A stretch of DNA of 64,000 nt from Polymorphum gilvum SL003B-26A1 (GTDB lineage Bacteria > Pseudomonadota > Alphaproteobacteria > Rhizobiales > Stappiaceae), in contig NC_015259.1 in NCBI RefSeq assembly GCF_000192745.1, forward strand, positions 2,991,001-3,055,000, read 5' to 3'. A program made the position numbers and the translations under genes. Of this stretch, positions 55,505-64,000 are shown piece by piece (position 1 is the stretch's first letter; each line of letters opens with the position of its first letter). The notes under the pieces are model-generated. The model saw only the letters and a program-made list of their open reading frames with translations, did no database searches and had not been told where the DNA came from.

Positions 55505-56322
55505 TGAAAGACCTTCTCGATCTCGCGCATCGACAGGTCCCGCGCCGGGGCATCGATGAACACCCTGCCGTCCTTGAGCGCGACGATGCGCTCGGCGTAG
55601 GAGACAGCATGCTCCATGTCGTGGGACGTGAAGACCAGCGTCGCCCCTTGCGTCCGGCTGAGGTCGACGAGCTGGCGCATGACCTCGTGGCCTGCGCTCG
55701 GGTCGAGGCTTGCTGCCGGTTCGTCCGCGATCATCAGCGGCGGGCGGCGGACAAGGGCGCGGGCGATCGCCACGCGCTGCTGCTGGCCGCCCGACAGCTG
55801 GTCGGCGCGCGCAAAGGCCTTGTCCAGCAGTCCGACGGCGTCGAGTGCTGCGGCAGCCTGCCGGCGCATGTCCTGCGACGCGACCGCCTGGTGCCATGCG
55901 CGCCAGACCCCCGGCAAACCGAACTGTCCGTGAATGACGTTGGTCAGCACCGACTGCCGGCGGACAAGGCTGTGGGCCTGGAAGACGAAGCCGACGCGGC
56001 GCCGGATCGCCCGCTTCTGCCGGCCGCTCGGCCGCGTCGAAAAGGTCTGGTCGAACAGGGTGATCGTGCCGTCGTCGATGTCGTGCAGCCCGATCAGGGA
56101 CTTCAGGAGGGTCGACTTTCCCGAGCCGTTCGCCCCGATCAGGGCGACCGCCTCGCCGGGCCGGATCGCTACGTCGATCCCCTTCAGAACCATCAGGTCC
56201 CGACCGTAGCTCTTGCGCACGCCGCGCAAGGCGAGCAGCGGCTCCGGCATCGCCGCAGCCGAAGCCCGGCCGCCGTCCTCGGTAAACCGGGCTCCGACAC
56301 TCGTTTCGACCAGATCAGTCAC
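55501..56322 (-). CDS. phnC: Phosphonate-type ABC transporter ATP-binding protein
   Basis: ABC ATPase of about 273 residues: Walker A ALIGANGSGKSTLLKSLIGL, Q-loop RRVGFVFQAHSLVRRQSVLT, signature ADQLSGGQQQRVAIARALVR, Walker B PLMIADEPAASLDPS and switch VFTSHDMEHAVSYAERIVAL. PhnC-like features include the long stretch between Walker A and signature (NVIHGQFG). The start is set at the GTG at 56322, overlapping phnD by 8 bp; an ATG at 56250 directly before the domain is possible. The upstream promoter has been separated by an insertion sequence. Confidence 0.92.
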   Translation of the reverse strand: MTDLVETSVGARFTEDGGRASAAAMPEPLLALRGVRKSYGRDLMVLKGIDVAIRPGEAVALIGANGSGKSTLLKSLIGLHDIDDGTITLFDQTFSTRPSGRQKRAIRRRVGFVFQAHSLVRRQSVLTNVIHGQFGLPGVWRAWHQAVASQDMRRQAAAALDAVGLLDKAFARADQLSGGQQQRVAIARALVRRPPLMIADEPAASLDPSAGHEVMRQLVDLSRTQGATLVFTSHDMEHAVSYAERIVALKDGRVFIDAPARDLSMREIEKVFQ

Positions 56323-56945
56323 CAACGAACTGCCCGAAGGTGTCGACGCCGATCGTGCGGTACATGGAGCGGACGTAGTCGTAGTCGCTGTCGTCGATCT
56401 CCGTGAGGAAGTGACCGCCCTTGAACTTCTGATTGTCGTCGCCCTTGAGGACAGCGGCCATCAGATCGGCCCCCCTGGTCACGAAAACCTTGCGGATCTG
56501 GTCGACGATTTCCGGATCGAGGTTCCGCTTGGCGACCAGGATGTCGTTCGGCAGGTCGCGACCGCGGGCGATCACGGTGAAGGCCACATCCGGATAGGTT
56601 TCGCGGATCTTCTGCATGTGGGTGAAGTTCATGCCGATGGCGGCGATGTCGCCGCGAATCAGGGCCTCGACGGCCGTGTTGCGGGAGACGATCTGCCCGT
56701 CATAGTCGGTCCCGAGCGTCAGGCCGAGATCGGCCAGCGCCTGAGCGGGGCCGAGATGCTGCGAGGTCGAGCCGACCGAGCCGAAGGTCACGATCTTGCC
56801 CCTCAGATCCTCGACGGTCTTGATCTTGCCGTCGGCCAGGGTGACGACCTGGGCGAAGTAGTCCGGGCGCTGCCAGCCGACAACGATCTGGGCGTCGGTC
56901 AGTTGCTTGATCACCACGTATTCGGCCGGACCGGTCAGCACCAGG
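56315..56945 (-). pseudogene. phnD: 5'-truncated phosphonate-binding protein gene
   Basis: The surviving 208 codons encode the C-terminal two thirds of a PhnD-type binding protein: LTGPAEYVVIKQLTDAQIVV, LRGKIVTFGSVGSTSQHLGP, IVSRNTAVEALIRGDIAAIG and RDLPNDILVAKRNLDPEIVD. The signal peptide and first lobe (roughly 90 residues) are missing, and the frame runs straight into the IS21 left end at 56946. The sequence beyond the far end of the element does not translate into PhnD, so the 5' part is gone from this locus. The fragment cannot be exported. It is probably non-functional, though phnC and phnE behind it are intact. Confidence 0.85.
56941..56945. repeat. Target-site duplication, left copy
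   Basis: CCAGG directly abuts the TG left end of the IS21 element; the same 5 bp (59468-59472) abut its CA right end. Five bp is within the 4-8 bp usual for IS21. Confidence 0.7.
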
Positions 56946-57080
56946 TGTCAACGGCGGAGCAAAAGTCGTCCATTGGGCGGCGTAAAAGTAGGCCACCTGA
57001 CGCCGCACGCGGGGAACGTCGGGAGGGCGTAGCCCGACCAGAGTTTCCCGCGTGCGGCGTTGGCGACTTTTTGAGGGGCT

Positions 57081-57852
57081 TCAGCCTGCCCTTCGGGCGC
57101 GGCTTTGAGCGAGACGATAGCTGTCGCCGTTCATCTCGAGGATGTTGACGTGGTGGGTCAGCCGGTCGAGCAGTGCGCCGGTCAGCCGTTCCGATCCCAG
57201 CGTCTCGGTCCATTCGTCGAATGGCAGATTGCTGGTGATCAGGGTGGCACCGCGTTCGTAGCGTTGCGCGATCAGCTCGAACAGCAATTCCGCCCCGGTC
57301 TTTGACAATGGCACGAAGCCCAGTTCGTCGATGATCAGGAGCTTGTAGGCTGCCATCTGCTTCTGGAAACGCAGCAGACGTCGCTCGTCGCGCGCCTCCA
57401 TCATCTCGCTGACCAGGGCAGCGGCGGTCGTGAAGCCGACGGACAAGCCCTTCTGGCAGGCGGCCAGACCGAGACCGAGCGCCACATGGGTCTTGCCCGT
57501 GCCGCTGGGGCCAAGCGCGATGACGTTCTCGCGCCGCTCGACCCATTCGCAGCGGGCCAGCTCCAGCACCTGCATCTTGTTGAGCTTCGGGATAGCGGCG
57601 AAGTCGAAGCTGTCGAGGCTTTTTGACGACCGGGAACCTCGCCGCCTTGATGCGGCGTTCGACCTTGCGGCGATCCCGTTCGATCATCTCCTGCTCAGCA
57701 AGCCGAGTGAGGTATCCGACATGGTCCACGCCCTGTGTGGCGCAGAGCCGGGCCAGCTTCTGATACTCGCGCTGGAAGGTCGGCAGCTTGAGGGTCTTGA
57801 GCGTGTGGGAGAGCAGGATCGCAGGGGGATTGTCTGACGCTTGGGTGCTCAT
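57081..57852 (-). pseudogene. istB: istB transposition helper ATPase, frameshifted
   Basis: IstB, an AAA+ helper of IS21 transposition. The N-terminal part starts at the ATG at 57852: MSTQASDNPPAILLSHTLKT and onward to ARFPVVK. The ATPase domain is in another frame: NVIALGPSGTGKTHVALGLG (Walker A), KLLIIDELGFVPLSKTGAEL (Walker B) and LITSNLPFDEW. The frames join at a run of five A on the coding strand (57620-57626 region). With four A the protein would read PVVKSLDSFDFAAIPKLNKM without break, so one extra A is the lesion. The 772-bp span is one more than a multiple of three. It is a true mutation or an assembly error. Confidence 0.88.
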
Positions 57853-59372
57853 GCGGCATCTCCCGCATGCGTCGACAGAAGCCGCATATAGGCCTTTGCC
57901 GATGTCTTCTCGACGGTGGCTCTTGGCAGGTACGGGTAGATGGACAGGTCCAGTCTCGGCGGCCGCCGCTCCACCTGGCACAGGAGAAGATGCTTGACGG
58001 CATCGAAGCCGATGGCCCCGATCTGGAGGGCCTGCTTCACCGCCACATGCAGATCGGCAAGCTCGAAGCTTTCCAGCAGCCGCAGCACCTGCACATACTC
58101 GCGCCGGCCATGCTTTGCCATGCGCGCTTCCATCAGGCGGCGCAGCGTGGCGAACGCCTCGGGCAGATCCCAGCCCTGAAGAGGAGCGGCCTGATCCAGC
58201 GCGTTGATCTTCTGTTCGATCAGCGGCAGGTAATGCAGCGGGTCGAACACAACGTCTTCCCGTTCCCAGCTTCGAGGATGACGAGCGATGATCTCGCCAC
58301 GGCAGCCGATCACCACCTCGTCGACATAGCCCCGGATCCATACATCCTGATGGCCGAAGGCGACCGGGACGGAGTAGTCGTTGGTCCTGTAGCGCACCAG
58401 CGCCTGGGAAGAGACCCGACCGCTGGCCTGATCGCAGGCCTCAAAAGGCGAAGCTGGCAGCGGCCGCATCGCCGCAAGATCGCGCTGCAGCCGTTCTGCG
58501 ATCGTCTCGCTCTCGCCGCGCAGCCTGTCGCGCTGGCGCTTGCGGCATTGCTCTTCCAGCCAGGCGTTGAACTCATCCCACGTCGCAAAGCGCGGGATCG
58601 GCACCATGAAGTTGCGACGGGCATAGCCGACGAGGCCTTCGACGCTTCCCTTGTCATTACCCTTGCCGGGGCGGCCATAGCGATCCCGGATCAGGTAGTG
58701 GGACAGGAAGCCGCTGAACAGCACTGTCCGCTTGCGCGTGCCATCGGCCAGGATCTTCGACACCAGGCAGCGGTCGTTGTCATAGACGATCGATTGTGGC
58801 ACCGCCCCGAAGAAGGCGAACGCATGGACGTGGCCATCAATCCAGGCCTCTGACACCGCCGCCGGATAGGCCCGCACATAGCAGGCGTCGCTGTGCGGCA
58901 GGTCGAGCACAAAGAAGTGCGCCTTCTGCTCCACGCCGCCGATGACAACCACAGCCTCGCCAAAGTCAGCCTGCGCGTGGCCCGGCGGATGCGATAACGG
59001 CACGAACACTTCCTGCCGGCGCTGCTCCCGCTCGCGCATGTAGTCCTTGATGATCGTATAGCCGCCGGTGAACCCGCACTCAGCCCGCAACCGGTCGAAC
59101 ACACGCTTGGCCGTGTGGCGCTGCTTGCGCGGTACCTTCAGGTCTTCGTCCAGCCAATGATCAATGGTCGAAACAAAGGCGTCCAGCTTCGGCCGACGCA
59201 CCGGGGCCTGACGGCGATAGCCCGGAGGCGTCGAATACGACAGCATCTTGGAAACGCTGTCGCGTGAGATATTGAAATGCTTCGCTGCCTGACGTCGGCT
59301 CATCCCCTCCGAGACCGCCAGACGCACCTTCAGATATAAGTCCACGGTGTAGATCCCCTGACCCTCCTGCAC
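57849..59372 (-). CDS. istA: IS21-family transposase IstA
   Basis: Transposase of 507 residues. The N-terminal HTH is LYLKVRLAVSEGMSRRQAAK followed by HFNISRDSVSKML. The DDE integrase core has Asp136 in GHAQADFGEA, Asp198 in QSIVYDNDRCL and Glu245 in KGNDKGSVEGLVGY. A C-terminal Mu-B-like segment ends PYLPRATVEKTSAKAYMRLL. Length is normal and no lesion is seen. Start is GTG at 59372; its stop overlaps the istB ATG. The transposase itself looks functional, in contrast to istB. Confidence 0.93.
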   Translation of the reverse strand: MQEGQGIYTVDLYLKVRLAVSEGMSRRQAAKHFNISRDSVSKMLSYSTPPGYRRQAPVRRPKLDAFVSTIDHWLDEDLKVPRKQRHTAKRVFDRLRAECGFTGGYTIIKDYMREREQRRQEVFVPLSHPPGHAQADFGEAVVVIGGVEQKAHFFVLDLPHSDACYVRAYPAAVSEAWIDGHVHAFAFFGAVPQSIVYDNDRCLVSKILADGTRKRTVLFSGFLSHYLIRDRYGRPGKGNDKGSVEGLVGYARRNFMVPIPRFATWDEFNAWLEEQCRKRQRDRLRGESETIAERLQRDLAAMRPLPASPFEACDQASGRVSSQALVRYRTNDYSVPVAFGHQDVWIRGYVDEVVIGCRGEIIARHPRSWEREDVVFDPLHYLPLIEQKINALDQAAPLQGWDLPEAFATLRRLMEARMAKHGRREYVQVLRLLESFELADLHVAVKQALQIGAIGFDAVKHLLLCQVERRPPRLDLSIYPYLPRATVEKTSAKAYMRLLSTHAGDAA

Positions 59373-59604
59373 ATGTTGCAGAAGGAAAATAGGTGGACGA
59401 CTTTTACGCCGCCCGCGGCAGGACTATCCCGCCGCTACCGTGGCCGAATTTTGCACCGCCGCTCTCACCAGGCTTCTATGTTCGAGTTTTGAACGCAGAG
59501 CCCGAGATTCCTGCAAGAAAAGCATTCCAAACTCACTGAATGTGCTTTCTTGAGTCGCTTTACATTATTCTGATCAGAAGAGCCCTGCCGCCGAATTGAA
59601 GACC

Positions 59605-62247
59605 ATGGGGGAATGCTTGTCGGACAACCCTATATTTTCCCAATCAGGCCTCCCCCTGGGCAAGTGGGACGAGGAGGGCAATCGTCAGCCTCTTGTTGAA
59701 CACAGCCGGGATGTCGCGGCTGTGTTCTCTGCACTGGCTAGACTGCCGGGTATCCGAAAACGACTCACCAGGCTGGCAGCCACCGCGGAGTTTCTCGACA
59801 TCTGGATCGAGCGATTGGCATGGTTCGTCTTCCTCCATGACCTTGGCAAGGCCAATTGGGGCTTTCAGGCGAGGATCGAGTCCACGGCGTGCGCTGTCGG
59901 CCACATCGCCCCGATCGCGGGCGCCTATGACGCCATCGTCGACCAACTGGATCCCGTTCGCATGGCCTCCTGGGGCGACGAGACCATGCTGGGAGACTGG
60001 TTTCATGCCGTTCTATCGCATCACGGTAAGCCTTGGCCTCAGAATCCGGGTCCCAACAAAACCGCATGCTATAAGAAATACTGGCAGGTACGCGGGGATT
60101 ACGACCCGATCGCCGAGGTTCAGCGACTGCGGGAAGCAGCGGACCAGTTCCATGGAACTGCGTTTCGGCAATGCAGTCCCGAGCTTCCCTTCACTTCCCC
60201 CCTGATCCACGCTCTGGCAGGGCTCGTCATGCTGGCCGATTGGATCGCCTCCTCGGACTGGCGGGCGAGCCCCGATGCGGCTCACCTCAGTACGTGGGCC
60301 CAGCGGATCTGTTGTGGCATCGGATTCGACCCGGAGCCTTGGCGTCGGACCATCGTCCCAGACGATTTTCAGGCGGCCTTCGGCTTTACGCCACGCACCT
60401 CCCAACTGGACTTCGTCAATGCCCCGGGAAGCCTCGCGATCCTGGAGGCCGAAACCGGATCCGGCAAGACCGAAGCCGCGCTCTGGCGATTTGTGGAGCG
60501 GTTCCGCGCGGGCGCGGTCGATGGGCTGTACTTCGCGCTTCCCAGCCGCACAGCAGCCGTGCAAGTGCACGGGCGTGTCGAGCGAATGATCCAGGCGCTC
60601 TGGCCGAACGACTCCCCTCCATGCATTCTTGCCGTGCCCGGATATCTCGACGACGCTTCGGGCGGCGGTCTGCCCGTTGCCGCCGACATGCTGGACTGCC
60701 CGGAAGAGGATACGCGCGCCCCGACGCCCTGGGCCTCCGAGCATCCCAAGCGCTACTTCACCGGCATGATCGGCGTCGGAACGCTAGACCAGGCCCTGTT
60801 GTCCGTTCTGCGGGTCAAGCATGCGCACATGCGCAGTGCCGCCCTGATGCGCCACATGCTCGTGATCGACGAAGTTCACGCGAGTGACGCCTACATGAGC
60901 CGCCTGACGGAAATCCTGCTGCGGGATCATCTTGCCGCTGGCGGCGAGGCCGCATTGCTGTCCGCGACACTCGGAGGTCATGCGCGTGCTCGCTATGCCG
61001 CGGTGGGCCGACTGTTCAACCTGAACGACCTCCACCTCGACGACTTGAGCAGAAGCGTTACGGTCCCCTACCCCGCGCTGACCGTTCAGACCAGCACCGG
61101 CAGCGAAACGATGGCCCTCGACCCGAGCGGCCGCAGCAAGCGCGTTTCGATGGCGGTCGAATGCCTGATCGATGATGCCCATCGCATCGCCGGCATTGCG
61201 TTCGCCGCTGCGCGAGAGGGCGCCAAGGTCCTCGTGGTGCGCAACACCGTTCAGGGCGCAGTCGATGTCCAGATGGCACTCGAGAATCTGGCGGGGCAAG
61301 GCGCTCCCGAGTTGTTCCGTGTCTCGGGCGATCCCGCTCGCCATCCCCCGGTGGCGACACTGCACCATGGCCGCTTCGCACGCGAGGATCGCCGATTGCT
61401 GGACGCGGCGGTGGAAAGGGCTGTCGGCAAGGCGAGGCCGCCGGGAGGACTCGTGCTTGTCGGCACACAAACGCTGGAGCAGAGCCTCGACATCGACGCC
61501 GATTACCTGATCACCGACCTCTGCCCGATGGACGTCCTGCTTCAAAGGCTGGGACGGCTGCACCGGCATGAGACCGAAACGGACGGCAGCCTCCGGCTCC
61601 GTCCGGACGCATTCCGGGACGCCCGTGCCCTGGTCCTCGCCCCGGCGGAGGCATTGGCCGGACTGTTGACCACCGTGCCGAGGACACGGCGAAATCGACA
61701 TGGTCTCGGCCCGCGCAAGGATGCTGATGGCGTCCCGCGCGGCGTCTATCCGGACCTGCTTGCGCTGGAAGCGACGCGGCGACTGTGCCTCGACCAACCG
61801 GTCTGGACCATCCCGGAGATGAACCGGATCCTGGTCGAGCGCGCGCTTCATCCCGAGGCGCATGACGAGATCCTCATGACGATGCCCGCAGAGCAGCGCG
61901 AAGCATGGGAGCGGCACTGGCGAGACATCGACGGCGTCCGCTTCGGCGATACCATGACCGCCCGGGGTGCCGCGCTGGATCGAAGAAAGCCGTTCATGGA
62001 CTTGGCCAACGCCCTCCTGCCGCAAGAACATCTCGCCACGCGCCTCGGCGACGAGGGCTACATCCTCAAGCTCCCCGAGGCCACCCTTGGCCCGTTCGGC
62101 ACGCCGATCAGCCGCATTGTCATCCCAGCCTGGTGGCTCGCTGGGATTCCAGATCCATCCAAAATCTCCATAAGTATTTGTTTTGAAAATAATAACTCAA
62201 ATCTCCCAAACGCCATCCCTTACAGCCGCTTGGGCCTGCAGCGATGA
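59605..62247 (+). CDS. cas3: Type I-E CRISPR nuclease-helicase Cas3
   Basis: Cas3 of 880 residues, close to the 888 of the E. coli type I-E enzyme. It nicks and degrades target DNA after recruitment by Cascade. The N-terminal HD domain has His33 (LVEHSRDVAAVF), His78-Asp79 (FLHDLGKANWGF) and LSHHGKPW. The SF2 helicase has Walker A with Lys288 (EAETGSGKTEAALW), the DEVH box 422-425 (MLVIDEVHASDAYM), SATLGG, and motifs V/VI in LVGTQTLEQSLDIDADYLIT followed by DVLLQRLGRLHRH. The last 30 residues are AT-rich and Asn/Ser-rich. The start is the ATG at 59605, with a TTG at 59596 as alternative. It is 132 bp beyond the right flank of the IS21 element; that gap is AT-rich and likely carries its promoter. 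Confidence 0.92.
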   Translation: MGECLSDNPIFSQSGLPLGKWDEEGNRQPLVEHSRDVAAVFSALARLPGIRKRLTRLAATAEFLDIWIERLAWFVFLHDLGKANWGFQARIESTACAVGHIAPIAGAYDAIVDQLDPVRMASWGDETMLGDWFHAVLSHHGKPWPQNPGPNKTACYKKYWQVRGDYDPIAEVQRLREAADQFHGTAFRQCSPELPFTSPLIHALAGLVMLADWIASSDWRASPDAAHLSTWAQRICCGIGFDPEPWRRTIVPDDFQAAFGFTPRTSQLDFVNAPGSLAILEAETGSGKTEAALWRFVERFRAGAVDGLYFALPSRTAAVQVHGRVERMIQALWPNDSPPCILAVPGYLDDASGGGLPVAADMLDCPEEDTRAPTPWASEHPKRYFTGMIGVGTLDQALLSVLRVKHAHMRSAALMRHMLVIDEVHASDAYMSRLTEILLRDHLAAGGEAALLSATLGGHARARYAAVGRLFNLNDLHLDDLSRSVTVPYPALTVQTSTGSETMALDPSGRSKRVSMAVECLIDDAHRIAGIAFAAAREGAKVLVVRNTVQGAVDVQMALENLAGQGAPELFRVSGDPARHPPVATLHHGRFAREDRRLLDAAVERAVGKARPPGGLVLVGTQTLEQSLDIDADYLITDLCPMDVLLQRLGRLHRHETETDGSLRLRPDAFRDARALVLAPAEALAGLLTTVPRTRRNRHGLGPRKDADGVPRGVYPDLLALEATRRLCLDQPVWTIPEMNRILVERALHPEAHDEILMTMPAEQREAWERHWRDIDGVRFGDTMTARGAALDRRKPFMDLANALLPQEHLATRLGDEGYILKLPEATLGPFGTPISRIVIPAWWLAGIPDPSKISISICFENNNSNLPNAIPYSRLGLQR

Positions 62248-62264
62248 GTGAAAAAATCTTGAAC

Positions 62265-62275
62265 TATAATTGGTA
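62265..62275 (+). promoter_or_regulatory. TATAATTGGTA site, identical to the pseudo-spacer seed
   Basis: Eleven bases 18 bp past the cas3 stop recur exactly at 62572-62582, the first part of the crRNA-like spacer. The site contains a perfect -10 hexamer (TATAAT), so it probably is the promoter of the small gene at 62328. The trinucleotide on its 5' side is AAC (PAM position for a type I-E guide). Identity is seen; promoter and target roles are inferred. Confidence 0.6.
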
Positions 62276-62303
62276 CATTAACGTAGAAAGCGAACAGCGG
62301 CAT

Positions 62304-62318
62304 CCTTCTCTCAGAAGG
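62304..62318 (+). promoter_or_regulatory. Hairpin that hides a strong Shine-Dalgarno sequence
   Basis: CCTTCT-CTC-AGAAGG is a perfect 6-bp stem with a 3-nt loop. Its right arm is most of the AGAAGGAG ribosome site (62313-62320) that lies 7 bp before the ATG at 62328. Folding would block initiation. Confidence 0.6.
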
Positions 62319-62327
62319 AGCAGGACA

Positions 62328-62543
62328 ATGCTGAGTCCATTTCGCAATCCCGACTGCACTACCCGGCGCAACCGTCGACTTGCCTTGCGTCTAATGCGGG
62401 CGCGTACTGCGAGATCCTATCGTCGTTTCACCTGTCAAAAAGAAGATGTCTGGTCAAAACCAGATAGCTGCAGGCAGCCTCTCAATTCTGTTGCAGTCGA
62501 ACGACCCGAGAGCGTGCCCTGGCTTTGGTCTGGCCCCATATAA
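62328..62543 (+). CDS. Small ORF in the cas3-casA gap, candidate toxin RNA/ORF (CreT-like position)
   Basis: An ORF of 71 residues starts MLSPFRNPDCTTRRNRRLAL and is Arg-rich in its first half, with a near-ideal ribosome site (AGAAGGAG, 7-bp spacing) that lies in a hairpin. The same frame is open back to an ATG at 62244 overlapping the cas3 stop as ATGA, giving 99 residues, so a cas3-coupled protein is an alternative. No homologue or domain is recognised. It ends 2 bp before the crRNA-like unit. In described CreTA modules the toxin is a short RNA with a strong ribosome site at this position, repressed by the crRNA-like partner. Whether an RNA, a peptide or neither is made here is unknown. Confidence 0.35.
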   Translation: MLSPFRNPDCTTRRNRRLALRLMRARTARSYRRFTCQKEDVWSKPDSCRQPLNSVAVERPESVPWLWSGPI

Positions 62544-62545
62544 AC

Positions 62546-62570
62546 GTGCTCCACAATTTGGAGATGTACC
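62546..62570 (+). repeat. Degenerate type I-E repeat (left)
   Basis: 25 nt: GTGCTCC start, 5-bp stem CTCCA/TGGAG around CAATT, GATGTACC end. It fits only loosely on its own; the spacing to the right repeat supports it. Confidence 0.45.
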
Positions 62571-62602
62571 ATATAATTGGTATTGTTGCCGGCAAGAATC
62601 GG

Positions 62603-62631
62603 CACAGCCCCGCCAACGCGGGGATTATTGG
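62603..62631 (+). repeat. Type I-E-like CRISPR repeat (right)
   Basis: 29 nt with CCCCGC-CAAC-GCGGGG in register with the E. coli repeat and an 8-nt 3' handle ATTATTGG that runs into the casA ribosome site (GGAGGTGAGG). Confidence 0.75.
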
Positions 62632-62641
62632 AGGTGAGGAC

Positions 62642-64000
62642 ATGAACTTGCTCACCGACGCCGTCCTCACCGGGCGGCAAGCGGCCGATCTGACCAAGGT
62701 CCGCCTCACCCTTCCCGAGCTTCTGGCAGGGCTGGTCCGGCAGGACATTGCGGACTATCCGCGCCTCAGACCGCATCAGCGGCATGTCTGGCACGCCCTG
62801 CTGGTGCAACTGGCGGGCCTTGCCCTGGCAAAGGCCGGCGATACCGCGCTGCCGGACGACGCGGCGCGGTGGCGTATCGTGCTGCGTGACCTGACCCCGG
62901 ACCACGCAGACGATGCCCCGTGGCGCCTCGTCACGCCGCCGGAACAGTCCGCCTTCCTGCAGGCGCCGGTGCCCGGCGGCGACCTTTCGGCCTTCAGGCC
63001 GGTCGAAACGCCGGGCGGCCTGGACATGCTCATCATGTCCAAAAACCACGACCTCAAGGCATCGGCGATGCCGGCTGACGACCCGGAACTGTGGCTCTAC
63101 GCCCTGGTCAGCCTGCAGACGCAGGAGGGGTTCCTTGGGGCCGGCAACTTTGGCATCAGCCGGATGAATGGCGGCTTCGCGAGCCGTCCTGCCTTGAGCG
63201 TCGGACCCGGCGACAGCGTCAGTGCGCGCTTCCGCCGCGACCTGCGGCTTGCGCTCGACCTACACGATCGTTGGTCCGAGGAATACGGCTATCGAAGCCA
63301 AGGCGGGCTTGGTCTTGTCTGGCTGGAGCCATGGGACGGCATGCGTTCGCTCGACATCGCTCGCCTCGATCTCTTCTACATCGAGATCTGCCGCCGTATC
63401 CGCTTGGTCAGGACGGACACCGGGCTGCGCGCGCTTGCAGCCGGAAGCAAGGTGCCGCGCATTGAGTCCAAGGCGCTGAACGGCGTCACCGGCGATCTCT
63501 GGACCAGCGTTGTCGACGAAAAGGGCAAGCGCAAGGCCTTCACGCTCGATGCACGCGGCTGGAGCTATCAGCAGATGGTGCGGCTGCTTTTCCCCGCCGT
63601 CCGGCGCGCCAGCGAGGAGATCACGCCTGCGCCCATGCAATCCGAGGCGCCGTTCGACGAAACCACCGGACTCTCCGTGCTGGCCCGTGCGGTCGTTCGC
63701 GGCCAGGGCAAGACGGAGGGCTATCACGAACGGCGCATCCCCGTTTCCCGGACGCTTCGCCTCGGCTTCGGCAAGACGGCGGCATCCGAACCGGCCGCAC
63801 AGGCGGCGCATGAGCGGGTCCGCGACGCGGGCACCTTCCAGTCGAAGGTCGTCTTTCCAGCCGTCCTTGCCGTGTTCACCGCCGCCCCTCGCACAGGCGC
63901 AGGCGAACGGGCACGCGACGACGACACCGCCAAGTCGCGGGCAGGCGCTGTCGCCGCACGGCTCGATGCGCTGATCGACCCGCTGTTCTTCGAGGATCTT
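62642..64000 (+). CDS. casA: Type I-E Cascade large subunit Cse1/CasA (Cas8e), 3' end outside window
   Basis: The first 453 codons are present. Like E. coli CasA it begins MNLL. Family block: SKNHDLKA (residues about 123-130), then WLYALVSLQTQEGFLGAGNF followed by GISRMNGGFASRP (141-172), the L1-like loop region used in PAM reading. The middle part (RFRRDLRLALDLHD, LDLFYIEICRRIRLV) is helical. The ATG at 62642 has a strong GGAGGTGAGG site overlapping the crRNA-like repeat. The rest of the Cascade operon (cse2, cas7, cas5, cas6e, cas1, cas2) and the array are expected to the right, beyond the window. Confidence 0.82.
   Translation, partial: MNLLTDAVLTGRQAADLTKVRLTLPELLAGLVRQDIADYPRLRPHQRHVWHALLVQLAGLALAKAGDTALPDDAARWRIVLRDLTPDHADDAPWRLVTPPEQSAFLQAPVPGGDLSAFRPVETPGGLDMLIMSKNHDLKASAMPADDPELWLYALVSLQTQEGFLGAGNFGISRMNGGFASRPALSVGPGDSVSARFRRDLRLALDLHDRWSEEYGYRSQGGLGLVWLEPWDGMRSLDIARLDLFYIEICRRIRLVRTDTGLRALAAGSKVPRIESKALNGVTGDLWTSVVDEKGKRKAFTLDARGWSYQQMVRLLFPAVRRASEEITPAPMQSEAPFDETTGLSVLARAVVRGQGKTEGYHERRIPVSRTLRLGFGKTAASEPAAQAAHERVRDAGTFQSKVVFPAVLAVFTAAPRTGAGERARDDDTAKSRAGAVAARLDALIDPLFFEDL

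Follow-up and report, generated by a model that had tools for sequence, protein, structure and literature searches.

A putative CreTA-type module in the cas3-casA gap of the type I-E CRISPR-Cas system of Polymorphum gilvum

Modules in which Cascade works with a crRNA-like guide as a repressor are known as CreTA, CreR, and CrePA and have been reviewed (PMC12737573). In the type I-E locus of Citrobacter rodentium, a translated 96-bp toxin open reading frame (ORF) in the cas3-casA gap is repressed by Cascade, and translation of this ORF is needed for toxicity (PMC12055562). Its degenerate guide unit lies upstream on the opposite strand and partly matches a site near the promoter that is flanked by the PAM ATG. 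In haloarchaeal type I-B systems, most two-repeat creA genes have repeats that are worn in opposite directions, and two CreA RNAs pair with their targets at seed positions 1 to 5 and 7 to 11, while position 6 need not pair (PMC8501985). In H. hubeiense, the guide represses the promoter that drives creT and creA, and the toxins characterized in haloarchaea are RNAs that sequester tRNA and contain mini-ORFs (PMC8501985). The Acinetobacter type I-F CreTA has a guide with two degenerate repeats in the gap between cas3 and the effector genes, and its target, flanked by a PAM, lies ahead of a small ORF. This 33-bp ORF is divergent from creA and acts as RNA, and 17 of the 20 guide bases pair (PMC10097628). 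CreR is a crRNA-like RNA adjoining the cas operon that matches a promoter in part and does not lead to cutting (PMC12737573, PMC13131331); it is cited in types I-B, I-E, and V-A (PMC13131331) and, according to the review, generally comes without a toxin gene. In CrePA, the repressed gene encodes a protein, CreP, which typically has a KilA-N domain (PMC12737573).

The locus described here lies in a 64,000-nt stretch of the Polymorphum gilvum SL003B-26A1 (Pg) genome (4,718,963 bp, two contigs), referred to as the window (NC_015259.1, positions 2,991,001 to 3,055,000, + strand). The relevant features, in window coordinates, are as follows.

59596..62247, + strand: cas3, with Pfam Cas3 HD and C-terminal domains
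62262..62264, + strand: AAC, PAM of the guide target, directly 5′ of the seed match
62265..62275, + strand: seed target TATAATTGGTA, an 11-mer matching guide positions 1 to 11, which probably lies within the small gene's promoter region
62315..62320, + strand: AAGGAG, Shine-Dalgarno-like by sequence
62328..62543, + strand: 71-codon ORF, candidate repressed (creT-like) gene, conserved in comparison with an ORF of an uncultured Pleomorphomonas
62543..62571, + strand: psiR1, degenerate left repeat, with a hairpin at 62549-62563 and an 8-nt handle at 62564-62571
62564..62623, + strand: predicted mature CreA-like RNA of 60 nt, assuming Cas6e cuts at both stem bases
62572..62602, + strand: psiS, 31-nt guide, position 1 being the base after the 8-nt handle and positions 1 to 11 the seed
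62603..62631, + strand: psiR2, right repeat with the host stem-loop, its core found elsewhere in the array only
62642..64000, + strand, continuing past the window end: casA (cas8e), PADLOC Cas8e 7e−204

PADLOC models (Cas8e, Cas11e, Cas7e, and Cas6e) place the system in subtype I-E. Downstream of casA are cse2, cas7, cas5, cas6, cas1, and cas2 and, beyond them, 6.3 kb from the unit and past the window end, a 31-repeat array (L002:10917-12784) with the repeat GTCTCCCCCGCCTACGCGGGGATGAACC and a period of mostly 61. One interval of this array is 42 nt, against the usual 33 nt (L002:12260-12330). The host Cas8e (62642 onward) had no Pfam match (PF09481) despite its strong PADLOC match, which points to a divergent I-E subgroup. 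Approximately 160 bp upstream of cas3, an IS21-type element (56953-59435) with IstB and transposase domains and inverted ends seems to truncate a phosphonate-binding transporter gene (56315-56941) at its start.

The right repeat, psiR2 (CACAGCCCCGCCAACGCGGGGATTATTGG), carries CCCCGC at positions 6 to 11 and GCGGGG at positions 16 to 21, in the type I-E register that the original prediction, made from the sequence of the window, had assigned to 62603-62631. Comparison with the host array had been set beforehand as a possible refutation, and the array repeat proved to have the same stem and register. Of the 31 genomic copies of the 16-nt host core CCCCGCCNACGCGGGG, 30 belong to the array and one to psiR2. 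Agreement of psiR2 with the array repeat is 16/21 over the first 21 nt and then falls to 3/8; 1,000 dinucleotide shuffles of the gap, read on both strands, gave at best 15/21. Wear runs the opposite way in psiR1, which matches the array repeat at 8/21 and then 6/8: the left unit keeps the 5′ handle and the right unit the stem half. The stem sequence of psiR1 has been lost and its hairpin kept (5 bp, CTCCA-CAATT-TGGAG), abutting the handle ATGTACCA, which agrees with the array handle ATGAACCC at six of eight positions. The degenerate left repeat foreseen in the original prediction is thus real. Its handle belongs one base to the right of the 62563-62570 first proposed, and the spacing between the repeats is 31 nt instead of 32, the fit to type I-E being retained. 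The unit had also been said to stand apart from any array. Unlike the alike repeats in series of an ordinary array, psiR1 and psiR2 agree at only 12 of 29 positions, and they enclose one guide only, at a distance of 6.3 kb from the host array. Rfam returned four matches over 62200-62800, all under gathering scores. Two other readings were dropped, the first being a tracrRNA-like element; type I-E systems are not known to use a tracrRNA. The second, psiR2 as a terminator, fails because no T run follows psiR2 and no + strand terminator was called there. The best explanation of 62543-62631 is a creA-type gene, that is, a mini-CRISPR with two divergently worn repeats.

A target for this guide, which the original prediction did not name any more than it did the 71-codon ORF, lies in the same cas3-casA gap, on the same strand, 307 bp upstream of the guide. 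The 11-mer TATAATTGGTA occurs twice in the 4.72-Mb genome, once in the guide and once at 62265-62275. A creA or creR gene is recognized by a nearby PAM-flanked seed match with little pairing beyond it; here, 11 of 11 positions match beside AAC, and past guide position 11 identity is just 4/20. No other site in the window scored at least nine of ten seed positions for this guide. In type I-E, repeat base 29 derives from the PAM, and base 29 of the Pg array repeat is C in 28 of 30 copies. The proposal that the unit is of the CreA/CreR type fits this match, and the guide reading is well supported, as judged from sequence comparison.

To place the unit in a wider context, Cas8e protein searches identified loci in 5 of 385 class, 3 of 87 family, and 10 of 397 order genomes (Pg counted in each), together with three genome_contigs loci. 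These gave 16 loci once L016 was merged with G830 and L018 with G682, identities that coordinates and sequence suggested. In eight of the 16, the gap contained a two-repeat unit (Pg, G830 [Pleo, see below], G311, G415, G589, G828, G742, and G540); none was seen by eye in the gaps of the other eight (G405, G467, G007, G034, L017, G682, G587, and G782). A Pfam Cse1 set above the cut-off added four loci, with a unit in one (G024); G029, whose Cse1 match was below the cut-off, was left out of this set. Overall, nine of the 20 I-E loci inspected had a two-repeat unit in the cas3-casA gap. Units were chosen by eye and all nine found were scored, with targets mostly noticed by eye before a fixed-register scan, in which the nine guides were compared with 550 nt (650 nt for G024) upstream of casA on both strands at seed positions 1 to 5 and 7 to 11.

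Six loci (Pg, G311, G589, G828, G540, and G024) scored 10/10 and three (Pleo, G415, and G742) scored 9/10, with guide position 6 mismatched in eight of the nine. The PAM was AAC in Pg, Pleo, G311, G415, G828, and G540, AAT in G589 and G742, and AAG in G024, where base 29 of the array repeat is G in 29 of 30 copies. In the two loci with AAT, base 29 is T in 52 of 148 repeats (G742) and in only 1 of 26 (G589). As a control, 298 array spacers were scanned in the same genomes and gaps; none reached 10/10 and 15 reached 9/10 (Fisher, 8e−11 for 10/10 and 2e−11 for 9 or more). These spacers were drawn via a strict repeat pattern (e.g., 26 of about 30 in G589), and 147 of the 298 came from G742. Shuffled seeds equaled the real score in 0 of 400 cases for Pg, G311, G589, and G828 and in 1 of 400 for G540, G024 being outside the shuffle set; taken alone, the match is weak in Pleo (16/400 as good), G415 (9/400), and G742 (15/400). 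Sliding the register cut the score in all six 10/10 loci and in G415, and some slides tied in Pleo and G742. The direction of wear, with the handle kept in psiR1 and the stem in psiR2, was the same in all eight loci compared and in G024, and the hairpin abuts the handle in all eight folded loci and again in G024. Outside the Pg-Pleo pair, the seeds seem to bear no relation to one another, and seed-target agreement is thus unlikely to reflect inherited sequence. Guide length is only 19 to 21 nt in G311 (L022), G415 (L023), G742 (L072), and G024 (L028) and 31 to 33 nt in the other five. In G024, which belongs to a different I-E subgroup, one more repeat-like hairpin, the third, precedes the unit (L028, reverse complement, about 1980-2400).

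The closest relative, Pleo (L016/L024), is an uncultured Pleomorphomonas with a Cas8e 60% identical to that of Pg and the same order of module parts. Position 5 changed from A in Pg to T in Pleo in guide and target alike; guide position 2 changed alone and is unpaired, and positions 13 to 15 also pair in Pleo.

The 71-codon ORF of Pg lies between target and guide, starting 52 nt past the seed target, and is thus downstream of the putatively repressed site. Pleo has an ORF of the same length in the same place, with no clear Shine-Dalgarno sequence; 29 of 71 residues are identical, most densely at both ends. Nucleotide identity by codon position is 0.63/0.53/0.31, and pS exceeds pN in frame (0.80 versus 0.42; Fisher, 1.1e−6 on rounded counts), an excess missing in the other two frames. 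Action as a protein rather than as RNA is therefore favored. The Pg protein had no family in Pfam (E value up to 0.1), NCBIfam, PHROGs (up to 1), or PADLOC (up to 0.01). AlphaFold gave one long helix (pLDDT, 60; pTM, 0.35), too poor a model for a fold search. A two-row profile of the ORF, for which at most 15 candidates per genome were scored in the order and class sets, was matched across 397 order, 385 class, and 20 family genomes (overlapping sets) only by Pg, Pleo, and G706. The G706 match (E value, 4.8e−4) was rejected as chance: it has an internal TAG and overlaps a longer opposite-strand frame, and no cas gene was recognized by eye at its locus. TBLASTN of the small protein against plasmids and phages returned nothing at an E value up to 1, and none of the 19 pattern matches in viral contigs survived a profile scan.

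Other loci carry small ORFs of their own. Those of G828, G589, G742, and G540 (66 to 75 codons) open between target and guide, and in the last three extend through the guide unit. Shine-Dalgarno-like sites precede a 31-codon ORF downstream of the target in G024 (GGAGG) and a 4-codon ORF in G415. None showed a convincing likeness to the Pg protein: for the nearest, that of G540, 44 of 2,000 shuffles were as good, and G024 did not fall below 60 of 2,000. PHROG matches of the Pleo (E value, 0.32) and G828 (E value, 0.13) ORFs were too weak to name relatives. These small ORFs could be payloads. In G415 (L023:2300-2625), the target lies downstream of the guide, where it overlaps a TATAAT; GAGGTGA, the 4-codon ORF (MEPP), a large inverted repeat, and casA come next, an arrangement that looks like a separate, RNA-type CreT.

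From this arrangement, a mechanism can be proposed. Cas6e would cut below both stems to release a crRNA-like RNA of about 60 nt, which would load into the host type I-E Cascade and bind 62265-62275 through the AAC PAM and the 11-nt seed. The guide-target pairing can be read directly from the DNA, and binding by Cascade would follow from it. Bound Cascade would cover the TATAAT upstream of the 71-codon gene, and, given the lack of pairing past the seed, published CreA work suggests a block of transcription and not cutting by Cas3. Because the guide matches a site just upstream of the small gene, Cascade probably keeps this gene off while the machinery works; placement and precedent suggest that the conserved small protein would probably be harmful once Cascade is lost or inhibited. 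Repression by the guide of a site in the cas3-casA gap appears very likely, and the 71-codon gene is the likely object of it; toxicity of its product is favored by a small margin. With some confidence, we favor the reading as a whole: a CreTA-type module of type I-E, with Cascade-CreA as the repressor of a possibly toxic small gene and perhaps of the Cascade operon as well.

Whether the Cascade operon is included depends on transcription. The Pg target contains TATAAT, for which no good −35 sequence was found, and the best promoter-like pair of the gap (TCCACA-16-TATAAT, 10/12) lies inside the guide unit. By our own rule, applied without a shuffle control, five of the eight loci (Pleo, G311, G589, G828, and G540) have a promoter-like pair overlapping the protospacer, and Pg, G415, and G742 do not. 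The small gene, guide, and casA share one strand along which no + strand terminator-like site was called, so one promoter may feed both the guide and the Cascade operon, and such a promoter could provide feedback as in CreR. The match inside the guide unit could also serve casA, which lies downstream on the same strand, alone, and the odds of transcription shared with casA are about even.

The same single-strand layout is compatible with a pure autoregulator of the CreR kind, in which the guide only tunes the promoter feeding the Cascade operon and the ORF is a leader gene with another function. CreR is cited in type I-E (PMC13131331). In G311 the guide is present with little room for an ORF, indicating that a payload gene is not obligatory. 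This account is nonetheless unlikely, since the ORF is conserved as a protein and, in two species, is flanked precisely by target and guide, with ORFs in the same place at other loci.

Less probable again is that the repressed transcript is toxic as RNA and not through its protein, as described for the haloarchaeal and Acinetobacter CreT mini-ORFs studied (PMC8501985, PMC10097628). The well-conserved start of the ORF (16 of 18 nucleotides) and the presence in the ORF of some codons rare in the cas genes would suit an RNA; however, third positions vary freely and residues are kept across the ORF, above all at its ends. That there is no guide, each TATAAT copy serving as the −10 element of its own promoter and the repeat-like units being what is left of a dead array, is highly improbable: the shared 11-mer does start with TATAAT and a promoter-like pair overlaps the guide, but the 11-mer is absent elsewhere in the genome, the other eight guides lack TATAAT (18 nt scanned) yet have seed matches in the same register beside AAN, and wear has spared handle and stem each in the unit where it is needed.

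The CreTA-type reading can be set against the described systems. With the C. rodentium module the Pg locus shares the I-E type, the cas3-casA gap, a degenerate guide unit, a partly matched PAM-flanked site near a promoter (putative in Pg), and a small ORF; it is set apart by its 71 codons, AAC PAM, and downstream guide on the same strand. Two divergently worn repeats and seed-only pairing recall the haloarchaeal systems, which differ as type I-B of archaea with RNA toxins. The Acinetobacter module has a similar guide, gap, and target upstream of a small ORF, and differs in its divergent, RNA-acting ORF and in pairing beyond the seed. Pg resembles CreR in its guide beside the cas operon and partial match, and differs from it by the conserved ORF between target and guide; as proposed for Pg, CrePA represses a protein-coding gene, whereas the Pg protein had none of the Pfam matches that a KilA-N domain would bring. 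No mention of type I-E or of such an ORF was found in PMC9458426. Among the matches listed, seen as titles and the starts of abstracts, no paper dealt with the Pg locus or an alphaproteobacterial I-E module; the original CreTA, CreR, and CrePA papers and their supplements may hold an earlier prediction. The original prediction did not recognize the unit as described, which holds for this locus and not for its kind, the C. rodentium I-E gap module included (PMC12055562). On sequence grounds, the guide is filed as creA/creR-type, and the whole as a variant with a conserved 71-amino-acid candidate payload on the strand of guide and casA.

A more tentative extension, which we regard as somewhat doubtful, is a fused unit in which one Cascade-repressed promoter would drive an unnamed small toxin protein, the guide, and the Cascade operon. 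Cas6e would cut the transcript into toxin mRNA, guide, and casA mRNA, and the slot, across alphaproteobacterial I-E systems, would act as an exchangeable cassette whose unrelated payload genes are guarded by coevolving seed-target pairs. Loss of Cascade would then raise both replacement Cascade and poison.

If the CreTA-type reading is true, a protein outside all four family libraries would join the small set of Cascade-repressed toxins, and such units would recur in the cas3-casA gap of alphaproteobacterial I-E systems (9 of 20 loci). A sequence test for more of them could combine two oppositely worn repeats with a seed match at positions 1 to 5 and 7 to 11 beside an AAN PAM. It would then become testable by what means the bacteria maintain CRISPR systems despite their cost and how they could detect an anti-CRISPR attack.
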